Shown here one piece after another: positions 27,527 through 31,720 of a stretch of 64,000 bases of DNA; the first letter of the stretch is position 1, and each line of letters starts with the position of its first letter. The translations under genes were made by a program, and so were the position numbers. The notes under the pieces are model-generated. The model worked only from the letters and a program-made list of their open reading frames with translations. It ran no database searches and was not told the DNA's origin. This stretch comes from Streptomyces albogriseolus (GTDB lineage: Bacteria > Actinomycetota > Actinomycetes > Streptomycetales > Streptomycetaceae). The stretch spans positions 1 to 64,000 of the forward strand of contig BMVA01000016.1 in the NCBI GenBank assembly GCA_014650475.1, read 5' to 3'.

Positions 27527-28015
27527 ATGCACGACACCAGGTGGAAGCAGGCCGTCGAATGGCTGGCCGCGGCGGCCACGGACCCGCAGGAGTGCAAACG
27601 CCAGTGGGACCGCGGTCAGGGCACGGCCCTGCTCGCGGCCGGGCGGTACTGGGACGTGCTGAGCGTGCCCGACCGCCTCGGGCTGCTGGCCCTGGATCTG
27701 CTGTGGAGCGATCCGCTGGAGATGCCCGGGCCCACGCTGGTGGACGTCACGGCACGCCGTGTGGGCTTCTTCCTGCCGCCCGACCCGGGCAGCGAGTGGG
27801 TGGGCTTCGGGGTACGGCACGTGGGACGCGGGTCCTGGGTGGCCGTGCCGCCGCCGTACCGGCCCTCCGGACGGCTGGAGTGGCTGGTCCCGCCGGACGG
27901 CACCGGCACGCTGCACGCGGCGGAGCCGCTGGAACGGGCGCTGCGGCGGGCGACCGGGACGCTCGCGGTGCTCGCCCCGGTCAGCGCGGAGCCGGCCGGT
28001 CCGGACTGCTGGTGA
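27527..28015 (+). CDS. Conserved hypothetical protein, primase/polymerase-like family
   Basis: 162 residues from ATG 27527, with GGGGTGGG upstream. Recognisable blocks are WKQAVEWLAAAATDP, GRYWDVLSVPDRLG, RVGFFLPPDPGSEWVGFGV, SWVAVPPPYRPSG and LEWLVPPDGTGTL. As far as I recall, similar short Streptomyces proteins are labelled as bifunctional DNA primase/polymerase N-terminal-like, but I see no catalytic Asp pair, so enzymatic activity is doubtful. It overlaps the convergent next gene by 35 bp. Function unknown. Confidence 0.65.
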   Translation: MHDTRWKQAVEWLAAAATDPQECKRQWDRGQGTALLAAGRYWDVLSVPDRLGLLALDLLWSDPLEMPGPTLVDVTARRVGFFLPPDPGSEWVGFGVRHVGRGSWVAVPPPYRPSGRLEWLVPPDGTGTLHAAEPLERALRRATGTLAVLAPVSAEPAGPDCW

Positions 28016-28373
28016 GCTCCGGTTCCGGCGCCTCCTCGGCCGCGGCCGCCTCGGACGACTCACGGGAAGACATCCCCTCGGGCGTCTCGCCGGACGGCAT
28101 GGCCCCGGACGTCTCCGTCTCCGGGGCCAGCAGGGGGACCGGGACGCGGAACGGCACGGTGGGCGCCGGGCCGTGGTCGTTCGCGGTCATGACGGCGAAC
28201 GACGCCCACGGCCCGTCCCTGTGCCCCGGGACGGTGCATCCCTTCGCCCGCCACTCCGCGACGAGTTCCGCGTAGATCGGTGTGTTCGCCACATGGCCGC
28301 CGGTCAGTTGCGCGTACGGCCGGTTCACGGCGCCGTGCCCGAGAAGGCGCCGCGCCGTCTCAGTGCTGTCCAT
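27981..28373 (-). CDS. Conserved hypothetical protein
   Basis: 130 residues from ATG 28373 (a GTG at 28421 would add 16). The N-terminal 75 residues look like a folded domain (TARRLLGHGAVNRPYAQLTGG, NTPIYAELVAEWRAKGCTVPG, WASFAVMTAND); the rest is Pro/Glu/Ser low complexity. No family function is known to me. It lies next to and divergent from the MerR-clamp gene. The third-codon position is strongly GC, supporting coding on this strand. Confidence 0.6.
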   Translation of the reverse strand: MDSTETARRLLGHGAVNRPYAQLTGGHVANTPIYAELVAEWRAKGCTVPGHRDGPWASFAVMTANDHGPAPTVPFRVPVPLLAPETETSGAMPSGETPEGMSSRESSEAAAAEEAPEPELTSSPDRPAPR

Positions 28374-28481
28374 GCCGGAGCAACGCGCCGCCGTGCGCCG
28401 GTGGTACGCCGTGGGCTCCACCTCCGCCCCGCGGGGGTGACATCGTCACCCGGTCGGCCGTACGCGTCGGGGAGGCGGGGT

Positions 28482-28512
28482 TTGACCCTCGACCTGGTCG
28501 AGGCGTCAGGGT
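28482..28512 (+). promoter_or_regulatory. MerR-type promoter with dyad in a 19-bp spacer
   Basis: TTGACC (28482-28487), 19-bp spacer, CAGGGT (28507-28512). The dyad CCTCGAC-CTG-GTCGAGG (28487-28503) fills the spacer. The overlong spacer with a central dyad is the hallmark of promoters activated by MerR proteins, and the gene immediately downstream is a MerR regulator, so autoactivation is likely. The -10 is poor by itself. Confidence 0.55.
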
Positions 28513-28531
28513 CCGAGGTGTGGAGAGCGAG

Positions 28532-29605
28532 ATGCGCAGCATTGGTGAGATGGCCCGCGAGAGCGGGCTGGGCGTCAGCGCCCTGCGGTTCTACGACCGT
28601 GCCGGTGTCCTGGTCCCCGACCAGGTCGATCCGGTCACGGGCTACCGCTGGTACGCGCCGGAGCAGCTCGGCGAGGCCCGGGTGCTGGCCCGGCTGCGCC
28701 GTGCCGGTATGCCGCTGGCGGACGTCCGGCTGGTCCTGGCCGGCTGGACGGCCGCCGACACCGAACTCGTACGCCGGCTCCTCGAGGCGCATCTGCGCCG
28801 GCTGGAGAAGGGGCTGTCGGCCGCCCGTGCCGAGTTCTCCGCGCTTCGTGACCTTCTCGACGACAGGGAGGACCCCCTCATGACCTCACCCCTTTCCGCC
28901 GCCCGGCTGTCCGTGTCCGGCCCCGGTCTGGCCGCCGCGCTGGACGCGGTCCGCTTCGCGGCCGGGACCGACCCGGAGCTGCCGGTGCTGGCCGGCGTCC
29001 ATCTCGACGCCGAGGGCGACGCCCTGCACCTCGTGGCGACCGACCGCTATCGGATGGCGGTGGCCCGCACCGCGGCGAGCGGGCAGGGGGGCGGCCGCGT
29101 GCAGGCGACCGTGCCGCTGCCGCTCGCCGACGCGATGCGGTCGCTGCTGGACGGCGAGGACGAGGTGCGCCTCACCGTGGACGACGGGCGCGTGACCCTG
29201 GAGGCCGGTGACCGGCAGACGGGCGGGCGCTGTCTGGGGCAGGACTTCCCGGACTACCGGCGCCTGGTGCGGCTGCCCGCCGGACGTCGTGCGGAGGTGA
29301 AGGTGCCCGCGTTCACGGAGGCGGTGCGCACGGGTCCGGTGCGGCTGCACGAGGACGGCGGGGCGACGTGCGAGCTGACGGTGCTGGAGGTGTCGGAGGA
29401 CGGCCGGGTCGCGCCGGTCCCGGAGGGCGCCGACGGCCCGGACCTCGTCGCGGTGAACCGGGCGTTCCTGCTGGACGCGCTGGCCGCGGCGGCCGACGAC
29501 CGGCTCGTCCTGGAGTTCGGCGCCCCGACGGCCCCGCTCGTGATCCGCGGGGCCGGCGACGAGCACACGTTCTCGCTGCTGATGCCGGTGCGACTGTCCG
29601 ACTGA
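28532..29605 (+). CDS. MerR regulator fused to DNA polymerase III beta (sliding clamp)-like domains
   Basis: 357 residues from ATG 28532. Residues 1-70 are a MerR winged helix: SIGEMARESGLGVSALRFYDRAGVL, then GYRWYAPEQLGEARVLARL. A coiled-coil helix (about 75-112) follows. The rest resembles two of the three domains of DnaN: PVLAGVHLDAEGDALHLVATDRYRMAVAR corresponds to the 'ATDRYRLAVR' block of the second clamp domain, and DLVAVNRAFLLDAL with the C-terminal TFSLLMPVRL corresponds to the end of the third. MerR proteins usually carry a small ligand domain instead. Similar proteins are known in Streptomyces but uncharacterised. An internal ATG at 28880 with a strong Shine-Dalgarno could make the clamp part alone. 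Confidence 0.88.
   Translation: MRSIGEMARESGLGVSALRFYDRAGVLVPDQVDPVTGYRWYAPEQLGEARVLARLRRAGMPLADVRLVLAGWTAADTELVRRLLEAHLRRLEKGLSAARAEFSALRDLLDDREDPLMTSPLSAARLSVSGPGLAAALDAVRFAAGTDPELPVLAGVHLDAEGDALHLVATDRYRMAVARTAASGQGGGRVQATVPLPLADAMRSLLDGEDEVRLTVDDGRVTLEAGDRQTGGRCLGQDFPDYRRLVRLPAGRRAEVKVPAFTEAVRTGPVRLHEDGGATCELTVLEVSEDGRVAPVPEGADGPDLVAVNRAFLLDALAAAADDRLVLEFGAPTAPLVIRGAGDEHTFSLLMPVRLSD
28865..28882 (+). promoter_or_regulatory. Internal Shine-Dalgarno and ATG inside the MerR-clamp gene
   Basis: AGGGAGG (28865-28871), 8 bp, ATG (28880-28882) in frame, exactly at the boundary between the MerR coiled coil and the clamp-like domain. Initiation here would yield a 241-residue protein lacking the DNA-binding part. 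Confidence 0.4.
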
Positions 29606-29633
29606 GCCGGACGTCTTGTCCCCGGAGCGCACG

Positions 29634-29673
29634 ACGGCCCGGGCGGCTCCCTCGCGGGGGCCGTCCGGGCCGT
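29634..29673. terminator. Hairpin between convergent MerR-clamp and antiporter genes
   Basis: ACGGCCCGG-G-CGGC (from 29634) pairs with GCCG-T-CCGGGCCGT (to 29673), with one internal mismatch and a loop of about a dozen bases. Confidence 0.6.
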
Positions 29674-29691
29674 ACGCACGGGCGGCGGGGG

Positions 29692-30939
29692 TCAGCGGTC
29701 GCGGCCGCTGTCCTCCATCGGCTCCAGCGCCTCCGCGGCGGGCGTGCCGCGCTGGGCCGGCAGGCTGTCGGGCGGGGGCGTGCCGCGTCCGGCCAGGCGC
29801 ATCGCGATCGGCTCGGTGTAGCGGGCGGTGAGCGGTCCGAGCACCACCAGGACCAGGACGTACGCGGTGGCCAGCGGGCCGAGCTGGGGCTCGATGCCGG
29901 CGGTGACGGCGAGTCCGGCGATGACGATGGAGAACTCGCCGCGCGCCACCAGCGTGCCGCCCGCGCGCCAGCGGCCCTTGACGGAGATGCCGGCCCGGCG
30001 GGCCGCCCACCAGCCGGTGGCGATCTTCGTGAGGACGGTGACGACGGCCAGGCCCAGCGCCGGGAGGATGACCGGCGGGATGGACTGCGGGTCGGTGTGC
30101 AGGCCGAAGAAGACGAAGAACACCGCGGCGAACAGGTCGCGCAGCGGGGCGAGCAGGTTGTGCGCGCCCTCCGCGACCTCGCCGGACAGGGCGATGCCGA
30201 CGAGGAACGCGCCGACGGCGGCCGACACCTGGAGCTGCTGGGCGATGCCGGCGACCAGCAGGGTCAGGCCGAGCACGACGAGCAGCAGCTTCTCCGGGTC
30301 GTCGCTGGAGACGAAGCGGGAGATCACGCGTCCGTAGCGGACGGCGACGAAGAGCACGAGACCGGCGACGCCCAGCGCGATGGCGAGGGTGACGCTGCCC
30401 GCGGCGAGGCTGACGCCGGCCAGCAGGGCGGTGATGATCGGGAGGTAGACGGCCATCGCCAGGTCCTCGAGCACGAGGATGCTGAGAATGACCGGGGTCT
30501 CTCGGTTGCCGAGCCGGCCCAGGTCGCCGAGGACCTTGGCGATGACGCCGGAGGAGGAGATCCAGGTGACGCCCGCGAGCACCACGGCGGCGACAGGGCC
30601 CCAGCCCATGAGCAGGGCGAGGGCGGCGCCGGGCAGGGCGTTGAGCGTCATGTCGACGAGACCGGCGGGGTACTGCGTCTTGAGGTTGGAGACGAGGTCG
30701 CTGGCCGTGTACTCGAGGCCGAGCATGAGGAGCAGCAGGATGACGCCGATCTCGGCGCCGATCGCGACGAACTCCTCGCTGGCGCCGAGCGGCAGCAGGC
30801 CGCCCTCGCCGAACGCGAGGCCGGCCAGCAGGTAGAGGGGGATGGGCGAGAACTGGAGGCGTCCGGCGAGGCGGCCGAGCAGGCCGAGACCGAGGATGAT
30901 CGCGCCGAACTCGATGAGGAAGATCGCGGAAGAGTGCAC
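29692..30939 (-). CDS. CPA2-family K+(Na+)/H+ antiporter, KhtU-like
   Basis: 415 residues from GTG 30939, four bases after the stop of the upstream khtT-like gene. About 12 transmembrane helices make up nearly the whole protein. CPA2 hallmarks include FGAIILGLGLLGRLAGRL, GVILLLLMLGLEYTASDL, LVLEDLAMAVYLP with the Glu-Asp pair that carries protons, and FFVFFGLHTDPQ. A short cytoplasmic C-terminal tail has no TrkA_N domain; the regulatory RCK_C part is encoded separately upstream, as in Bacillus KhtTU. It likely expels K+ in exchange for protons under alkaline or electrophile stress. Confidence 0.88.
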   Translation of the reverse strand: MHSSAIFLIEFGAIILGLGLLGRLAGRLQFSPIPLYLLAGLAFGEGGLLPLGASEEFVAIGAEIGVILLLLMLGLEYTASDLVSNLKTQYPAGLVDMTLNALPGAALALLMGWGPVAAVVLAGVTWISSSGVIAKVLGDLGRLGNRETPVILSILVLEDLAMAVYLPIITALLAGVSLAAGSVTLAIALGVAGLVLFVAVRYGRVISRFVSSDDPEKLLLVVLGLTLLVAGIAQQLQVSAAVGAFLVGIALSGEVAEGAHNLLAPLRDLFAAVFFVFFGLHTDPQSIPPVILPALGLAVVTVLTKIATGWWAARRAGISVKGRWRAGGTLVARGEFSIVIAGLAVTAGIEPQLGPLATAYVLVLVVLGPLTARYTEPIAMRLAGRGTPPPDSLPAQRGTPAAEALEPMEDSGRDR

Positions 30940-30943
30940 GCGC

Positions 30944-31414
30944 TCACTCCCGCCCGAGGATCTCGGCGGCGGCGTCGATGCCTTCGCGGGTGCCGATCAC
31001 GATCAGGGTGTCGCCGCCGGCGAGCCGGAAGTCCGGCGCGGGCGACGGGATCGCCTCCGCGCGACGCAGGACGGCCACGATCGACACTCCCGTGTCGGTG
31101 CGCATCCGCGTCTCGCCCAGCAGGCGTCCGTTCCAGTGGGAGACCGAGGACAGCTCGATGCGCTCGGCGACCAGGCCCAGGTCGGTGGTGTGCAGCAGGT
31201 TGGGGCTGTGGTGGGCCGGCATCAGCGCGTCGATGAGCGCGGCCGACTCGGCGACGCTGAGCCGCAGCGAGCGGGCGCAGGCGTCCGGGTCGTCGGAGCG
31301 GTAGACGTTGACCGTACGGGCGCCGTCGCGGTGCGCGATGACGGACAGGTGCTCGTGCTCACGCGTGGTGAGGTCGTATTTGACACCGATGCCCGGCAAC
31401 GGTGTCGCGCTCAT
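30944..31414 (-). CDS. TrkA-C (RCK_C) regulatory subunit of K+/H+ antiporter, KhtT-like
   Basis: 156 residues from ATG 31414. N-terminal half: GVKYDLTTREHEHLSVIAHRDGARTVNVY, typical of KhtT-type subunits. C-terminal half is an RCK_C domain: LRLSVAES..., SVSHWNGRLLGETRMRTDTGVSIVAVLR, FRLAGGDTLIVIGTREGIDAA. Such subunits bind nucleotides and sense pH to gate the partner antiporter. The antiporter gene starts 4 bp after this stop, with its Shine-Dalgarno inside this gene, so the two are translated together. Confidence 0.88.
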   Translation of the reverse strand: MSATPLPGIGVKYDLTTREHEHLSVIAHRDGARTVNVYRSDDPDACARSLRLSVAESAALIDALMPAHHSPNLLHTTDLGLVAERIELSSVSHWNGRLLGETRMRTDTGVSIVAVLRRAEAIPSPAPDFRLAGGDTLIVIGTREGIDAAAEILGRE

Positions 31415-31720
31415 CCGTGGAGCAGGCACAGCCCGTCCCCTTCCCGTCTTCTTCTCAAGCCGTCCGATGTGCGGGGGCTGAACGGACCGGCGCACGGCAC
31501 CAGGTGGCCACCCTCACTGCCGTAATGGTGCCATCCCGCCATTCGGCCGGAACATGGGTGTTGCCACGGATGGACAGCCCGCGGGACCACGGCGAGGATC
31601 TCCGAGGACGTCGTGTCCCCGCAGGTCAGCGGGGTGTACCGGACAAAGCGCAGGAATCGGATGCGTAGCGGACCGCCCGCGTGGGTACTCGGTGGCATCT
31701 TCCGGGGACGGGAGTGTGTG
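31415..31720. other. Non-coding region between khtT-like and USP genes
   Basis: About 306 bp with no supportable gene. It holds promoters for both divergent units, a palindrome GGTGGCCACC (about 31502-31511), and a hairpin CCCCGC-AGGTCA-GCGGGG (31617-31634) about 85 bp before the USP start. The hairpin could act in the USP leader. The first half is pyrimidine-rich on the plus strand. Confidence 0.5.

Follow-up and report, generated by a model that had tools for sequence, protein, structure and literature searches.

What might a transcription factor do with part of a replicative sliding clamp? The question is raised by a gene in the 64,000-nucleotide stretch of Streptomyces albogriseolus DNA analysed here (the window), whose product consists of a MerR helix-turn-helix and coiled coil joined to domains II and III of DnaN, with DnaN domain I absent. 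The initial annotation of this gene had described a MerR regulator with two clamp domains, and had proposed either a link between replication status and transcription or the reuse of the clamp domains as a ligand- or protein-binding module. We know of no other transcription factor with a sliding-clamp sensor, and the fusion would be the first. The titles and abstract openings of the literature matches listed contained no account of such a fusion or of clamp-based regulation, with subscription papers and preprints lying outside the search.

Domain architecture and distribution of the family

The full-length protein (361 aa) is encoded on the forward strand at 28520..29605, starting from a predicted leaderless GTG; an alternative ATG at 28532 (+) gives a 357-aa form with the same end at 29605. 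The MerR winged helix-turn-helix lies at 28538..28741 (+; residues 3-70 of the 357-aa form) and was identified by Pfam MerR_1 with an E-value of 3.8e-12, over the cut-off. It is followed by a long helix in the secondary structure of the model (residues 77-113, 28760..28870, +), which is predicted to be the usual MerR coiled coil, through which the protein would dimerise. The DnaN domain II-like part was placed at 28901..29254 (+; approximately residues 124-241; Pfam 5.5e-17) and the domain III-like part at 29285..29596 (+; approximately residues 252-355; Pfam 8.1e-07 for residues 306-354), both with a fold match. The alignment to TIGR00663 started at position 127, with a score below the DnaN equivalog cut-off, and the predicted structure aligned with clamp residues from 121-122 onward; the linker residues 114-120 of the model had a pLDDT of <50. 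Prediction of the C-terminal part and its comparison with DnaN structures, as proposed in the initial annotation, matched the clamp fold, and the assignment of MerR plus two clamp domains was confirmed by the Pfam matches to MerR_1, DnaN domain II and domain III. The TipAS domain (PF07739) was not found among the Pfam matches of the window protein at E up to 1.

The first scan of genome contigs yielded 50 loci, comprising 45 fusion genes (L011-L055) and five loci that matched MerR only or DnaN only. L055 is a divergent fusion gene from Nesterenkonia, and L052 is broken; other disrupted frames among the relatives were the fusion of L168 (G881) and the TPR partner of L152. Subfamily I was present in 78 of the 296 Streptomyces genomes (score of at least 398 bits). 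These were counted by score from the rows of the 117 genomes with a match at 1e-38; G023 was included even with its 5' side cut, G455 holds a fragment, and G439 and G624 gave MerR-only matches. The other matches among the 117 were divergent fusions, complete or partial. The divergent subfamilies II and III were found in Streptomyces and in other Actinomycetes, and a search with the subfamily-II alignment matched 31 of 394 genomes of the class at 1e-45, from several families and with subfamily I included.

Pfam matched MerR_1 and DnaN domain II in 20/20 aligned members of subfamilies I, II and III, and domain III at 0.01 in only 4/20. The model of a subfamily-II member had a pLDDT of 92.1, and its best structural matches were clamps (2.0e-18). 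In a tree of 55 clamp-half sequences, subfamilies I, II and III and DnaN each formed one group (supports 100/100, 100/98, 95/95 and 89/95, respectively), and subfamilies II and III joined with a support of 99/98; one and two fusion events are not separable in this tree, since it was rooted by midpoint only. The MerR-half-clamp is thus a real family and not an accident.

The gene was carried at full length on five large plasmid records and in part on one more, and no relative was found in any of 50,697 phage records. Subfamily I had no widely shared neighbours: the largest neighbour clusters spanned 9/46 loci, mostly close relatives, although neighbours may have been missed, as the simple gene picker recovered the fusion gene in only 39/46 loci. 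Phage proteins that target the clamp exist, and a role as decoy and sensor for phage-encoded clamp-binding proteins would suit the patchy occurrence in Streptomyces, the five plasmid records and the presence of a Gp168-clamp structure among the structural matches listed. We regard such an anti-phage role as very improbable, given the lack of relatives in phage records and of a widely recurring neighbour gene, and the confinement of the PADLOC matches to the helix-turn-helix and helix region. The anti-phage models concerned, mad1 (1.1e-08) and BrxA (0.011), match outside the clamp half and were rejected.

Retention of the peptide pocket and loss of the ring interface

The 18 peptide-pocket residues and the dimer-interface residues of the clamp, as listed in the excerpts of PMC11139829, were mapped by alignment with 16 DnaN sequences and E. 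coli DnaN. The window protein was identical to the host DnaN at 16/18 pocket positions compared with 55/203 other positions (p 3e-7), which is a contrast and not proof, because the fusion and the host DnaN share ancestry. The pocket conservation that the initial annotation had suggested checking was thus found. Over 36 subfamily-I rows, a mean of 14.1/18 pocket positions equalled DnaN, compared with 23% elsewhere. At the positions of R152 and G174 the common DnaN letter is replaced in the window protein, yet the host DnaN has the same residue.

Six of the 11 invariant clamp-half columns fell in the pocket (p 3e-5; 20 members, three of subfamily I and 17 of II/III). The pocket motif TDRYRM (29039..29056, +; E. 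coli 172-177) holds the columns of E. coli T172, G174 (R here) and R176, and MPVR (29582..29593, +; E. coli 362-365) those of M362 and P363, all of which were invariant in these 20 aligned members. R365, which contacts mycoplanecin, was retained in 75% of the 36 subfamily-I rows and missing in 25%. Subsite I was mostly retained in subfamilies I and II; subsite II was changed in subfamily II, where N320 and Y323 were lost and R365 was mostly lost (six rows). When compared with equally conserved DnaN columns, the pocket was kept at 12/16 against 41/91 positions in subfamily I (p 0.025) and at 10/16 against 35/91 in subfamily II (p 0.065). This excess is modest, and fold constraint may partly account for the retention.

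The ring interface showed a different pattern. L273 was replaced by Arg in 78% of the 36 subfamily-I rows, and the columns of E298 and E304 were gaps in 100% and 94% of them, respectively. At the domain III interface positions I272, L273, E298 and E304 the window protein has V, R, gap and gap, the gaps being alignment-dependent. The conserved DnaN arginines 198, 205, 268, 269 and 282, which we take to line the clamp channel, were also lost in the fusion. A ring of fused clamps was rejected, and the ring or trimer form raised in the initial annotation is unsupported, because the chain lacks domain I and has a changed interface on domain III. In common with DnaN, the fusion has domains II and III as well as the pocket residues; it differs in lacking domain I, in its altered dimer interface, in the loss of several conserved arginines and in scoring below the equivalog cut-off. 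Being one domain short and without a conserved interface, it does not qualify as a sliding clamp. Of the two roles proposed in the initial annotation, the binding module is the better supported, the pocket being kept and the ring-interface and presumed channel residues lost.

Such a module need not bind clamp ligands. The clamp fold may instead serve to bind an unrelated small molecule, or be no more than a protein-interaction scaffold, with the pocket kept only to hold the two domains together; the many non-pocket columns that are also kept (41/91) and the drift of subsite II in subfamily II would agree with this. The concentration of invariant columns in the pocket and the loss of interface residues, when most pocket residues were not lost, make this explanation distinctly unlikely.

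The predicted promoter, operator and internal start

Upstream of the gene, a predicted MerR-type operator, TTGACCCTCGACCTGGTCGAGG, was located at 28482..28503 (+), with the -35 box at 28482-28487 and the dyad CCTCGACCTGGTCGAGG at 28487-28503. The -10 box CAGGGT follows at 28507..28512 (+) after a 19-bp spacer, giving the layout TTGACC-CTCGACCTGGTCGAGGCGT-CAGGGT (28482-28512), in which the dyad lies within a spacer as long as expected of MerR-activated promoters. With up to 3 mismatches allowed, the operator occurred once in the window and in none of 100 shuffles. It was present upstream of 45/46 aligned subfamily-I loci (the exception being L054, with a variant in L055), and a variant operator adjoined the gene in 17/19 subfamily II/III rows. 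Among 78 distinct subfamily-I promoters the -10 box was CAGAGT in 39 and CAGGGT in 28. An in-frame ATG or GTG was found 37-39 nt from the first T of the -35 box in 78 distinct subfamily-I regions (76 at 38), and 37-38 nt from it in 18 subfamily-II/III promoters; these counts cover regions with an operator match, leaving L054, L162 and L167 outside. Since the -10 box ends about 7 nt before this start codon, which falls at the expected transcription start, the GTG at 28520 is probably a leaderless start of the long form. Rfam gave no match in window positions 28000-30000.

In 12 of the 12 gene-carrying genomes searched, the operator pattern was found at the fusion promoter, with 0-2 mismatches in nine and 3 in three. 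The 36 places recovered comprised these 12 promoters, one opposite-strand reading of a fusion site and 23 others, all with exactly 3 mismatches; a reversed control pattern gave 5 matches. Thirty of the 36 places were read as loci, and 13 of the 17 non-fusion ones lay inside long open reading frames; L104 and L114, from one genome, looked promoter-like. One subfamily-II operator pattern recovered the fusion promoter in 4/6 genomes at up to 3 mismatches. The adjacent predicted operator suggests autoregulation of the fusion gene.

A second translation signal was identified within the gene. The Shine-Dalgarno sequence AGGGAG (28865..28870, +), which includes the rare Arg codon AGG, precedes an internal ATG from which a free half-clamp of 241 aa is predicted (28880..29605, +). 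An in-frame ATG or GTG after a GGAG-type sequence was present in the linker in 45/45 subfamily-I genes (L011-L054 and the window, without L055, which has no internal start; for L052, broken further downstream, the upstream part alone was counted) and in 29/29 newly fetched genes. After 93 loci were merged to 79 distinct subfamily-I sequences, with the 5'-truncated L067 and L055 left out, 78/79 had the Shine-Dalgarno sequence and start at this place; the single miss and two of the matches came from genus g8, and outside g8 the count was 76/76. The sequences in these counts are related and not independent.

The codon before Glu at the internal Shine-Dalgarno sequence was Arg-AGG in 64, Arg-CGG in six, Lys-AAG in four, Gln-CAG in two and Glu-GAG in two, so that the GGAG core persists where Arg is replaced by Lys, Gln or Glu. 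Arg at this position was encoded by AGG in 64/70, compared with 45/1750 Arg codons elsewhere in the 45 genes, and no other conserved Arg column of the subfamily-I genes was mostly AGG (highest 10/35). In-frame starts with such a Shine-Dalgarno sequence occurred elsewhere in the 45 genes at 1.5 per gene (66/14130 codons); the case for an internal start is therefore made by its constant position and by the codon. The signal sits in the low-confidence linker of the model, where protein structure would give little reason for its conservation. By duplex energy the internal Shine-Dalgarno sequence was stronger than that before ATG 28532 in 35/45 genes, a comparison that is moot if GTG 28520 is leaderless, and it was not extreme within genes (median 8th percentile). 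With a looser Shine-Dalgarno rule that also allowed TTG, the internal start was found in 18/31 loci of genus g8 and missing in 13/31. Subfamilies II and III had no recurring internal start, and most members were without one.

This arrangement resembles that of TipA (TipAL/TipAS) of Streptomyces lividans and AlbA of Klebsiella oxytoca, which, in the excerpts of PMC7762955 and PMC6078987, have a MerR head and a C-terminal ligand domain, with a second in-frame product consisting of the ligand domain alone, and of which TipA induces itself. The fusion has the same MerR head and a putative C-terminal ligand domain, with a predicted second in-frame product, and the layout of its operator is the same as that of the TipA-class operators (TTGACCCTCACG...) given in the excerpts of PMC7762955. 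It differs from TipA in that the ligand domain is half of a sliding clamp and not the TipAS fold, and in that the ligand and both products are putative. The effector domain sets the fusion apart from the TipA class, even if it works like TipA and AlbA.

From the fusion, its fold, the retained pocket, the lost interface, the predicted operator and the conserved internal start signal, all read from sequence, we infer ligand binding, activation, two protein products and sequestration, as follows. The MerR part would sit on its own long-spacer promoter, and the sensing part would be the pocket-bearing domains II and III of a former sliding clamp, unable to form a ring. A ligand that docks in the clamp peptide pocket would bind the half-clamp, upon which the MerR dimer would remodel the promoter. 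More of the sensor would then be made, joined in most of subfamily I by the free half-clamp translated from the internal start; this half-clamp would sequester the ligand and protect DnaN, much as TipAS acts on its drugs. We give about even chances to the protein being a sensor that detects ligands of the clamp pocket, regulates its own gene and responds by producing pocket-bearing protein. If so, the half of an essential drug target that binds drugs and peptides has been made into a sensor. The fusion would then supply a ready reporter for antibiotics aimed at the clamp, which are being pursued against tuberculosis, and would allow a direct test of clamp-occupancy sensing in bacteria.

Candidate ligands, the dnaA-dnaN site and partner genes

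According to the excerpts of PMC10817943, clamps bind griselimycin and mycoplanecin in the same pocket, and the producer of griselimycin is a Streptomyces (excerpts of PMC11139829). With some reservation, we favour as the likeliest ligand an inhibitor that binds the pocket, such as a clamp-targeting natural product resembling griselimycin and mycoplanecin, over host clamp-binding proteins. GriR and MypR are second DnaN copies of the griselimycin and mycoplanecin clusters, located near transposase genes (excerpts of PMC10817943). Like these, the fusion would be a clamp-related protein possibly handling clamp-targeting antibiotics; as far as the descriptions of the two go, it is set apart from them by the MerR fusion, the half clamp and the lack of widely shared neighbours. 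Second dnaN copies, possibly self-resistance clamps, were noted at L267 (G104), L268 (G335), L269 (G023) and G1023:C1:709462-709815; upstream of L267-L269 there was no fusion operator (best 7-8 mismatches).

Genus g8 belongs to another family of the same class, and a fusion match was found in 31/31 of its genomes (29 with >350 bits). The regions upstream of dnaN were compared in 31 loci, 30 from the 31 searched genomes (G1026 gave none) and L265 of G973. An operator-like site at up to 5 mismatches was present in 21/31, and 0/1550 shuffles (50 per region) reached 5 or fewer. At up to 7 mismatches, 28/31 regions had a site at the same place, 688-704 nt ahead of the match to domain I (none in L277, L279 and L266); seven of these 28 have 6-7 mismatches, a level reached by 115/1550 shuffles (6: 17; 7: 98). 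The dnaA stop was located in 30/31 regions, and 27/28 sites lay 51-365 nt behind it; the DnaA motif and DnaA-box pattern used are our assumption. The sites point towards dnaN, have a -10-like CANNAT, and are conserved at 1.42 bits, compared with 0.41 in the upstream flank and 0.82 downstream. The candidate MerR-type promoter lies at about base 800 in the series L264 and L277-L304, oriented to dnaN. The dnaA-dnaN interval is the usual place of the chromosome origin, and this candidate promoter would send transcription across the origin region into dnaN; the protein that binds it may be the fusion or a MerR paralogue. In genus g8, the real clamp DnaN might thus be induced along with the fusion. 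No such site was found upstream of dnaN in 17 genomes of other genera (14 Streptomyces and three others). In G327, a further operator-like site was found 39 nt before the start of an MFS transporter gene. The sensor, the free half-clamp, possibly DnaN and one transporter would be an expected survival output against a clamp-targeting inhibitor.

A TPR-like gene was located directly downstream of the fusion in 9/12 subfamily-II and 5/6 subfamily-III loci, not counting loci selected by the TPR gene. This small TPR-like family occurs downstream of the fusions L070-L075 and L151-L168, with relatives at L229-L243. Seventeen of the 21 more distant TPR loci (L226-L246) were inspected, and in 13 of these 17 other places the TPR relative follows a UDG-like (uracil-DNA-glycosylase-family) gene, assigned by eye with one confirmed by Pfam. 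L071/L151 (G315:C6) is a naturally occurring triple fusion, with MerR, half-clamp and TPR in a single open frame of 544 aa. Three subfamily-II members lack an intact TPR partner; two of these, L160 and L162, differ from their TPR-linked relatives in having a strong Shine-Dalgarno sequence and a GTG or ATG in the linker; in subfamily II, the TPR partner and the internal start are perhaps alternatives.

These observations bear on the link between replication status and transcription that the initial annotation had considered: it gained unexpected support from the operator-like site between dnaA and dnaN in g8 and from the UDG-family neighbours of relatives of the TPR partner (II/III). They also speak for a replication or repair homeostat, in which the half-clamp pocket would bind the clamp-binding motifs of polymerases or repair proteins when these outnumber free clamps, and more clamp or repair partner would be made. 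A pocket almost identical to that of the host DnaN should bind host proteins too, and a fusion match in every g8 genome searched is unusual for a resistance gene; both count against a drug sensor and for the homeostat, and the TPR partner of subfamilies II and III is left unexplained by a drug sponge. The homeostat is nevertheless rather unlikely in our estimate. It meets no dnaN-upstream site in the 17 genomes of other genera, no subfamily I in most Streptomyces and no widely recurring neighbour gene in subfamily I, and any free half-clamp would be a competitor of the real clamp for binding partners. The inhibitor sensor is ranked above it because homeostasis explains neither the release of a free half-clamp nor an autoregulated gene with an operator that was not closely matched anywhere else in the Streptomyces genomes searched. 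A broader reading, which we consider conceivable but doubtful, is a factor that reads the occupancy of the clamp pocket by drugs or host proteins and feeds back through decoy half-clamps and, in g8, the dnaA-dnaN promoter.

Two genes downstream of the fusion in the window (29692-31495, -) were assigned by eye as a cation antiporter-like gene and a TrkA-like partner; the cluster of the antiporter-like gene spans 8 loci. A MerR-PP2C fusion was also observed in Streptomyces, at G000:C27:29676-30749 (L005/L187, where L187 repeats L005), L056 and L188-L207. It shares with the MerR-half-clamp the MerR head, a similar operator (15/16 loci found by motif search, which missed 7/23 loci) and an in-frame ATG with an SD-like sequence directly after the coiled coil (16/16 loci), and differs in having a phosphatase-like effector (Pfam PP2C_2). 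A design with two products may be widespread in MerR fusions of Streptomyces.
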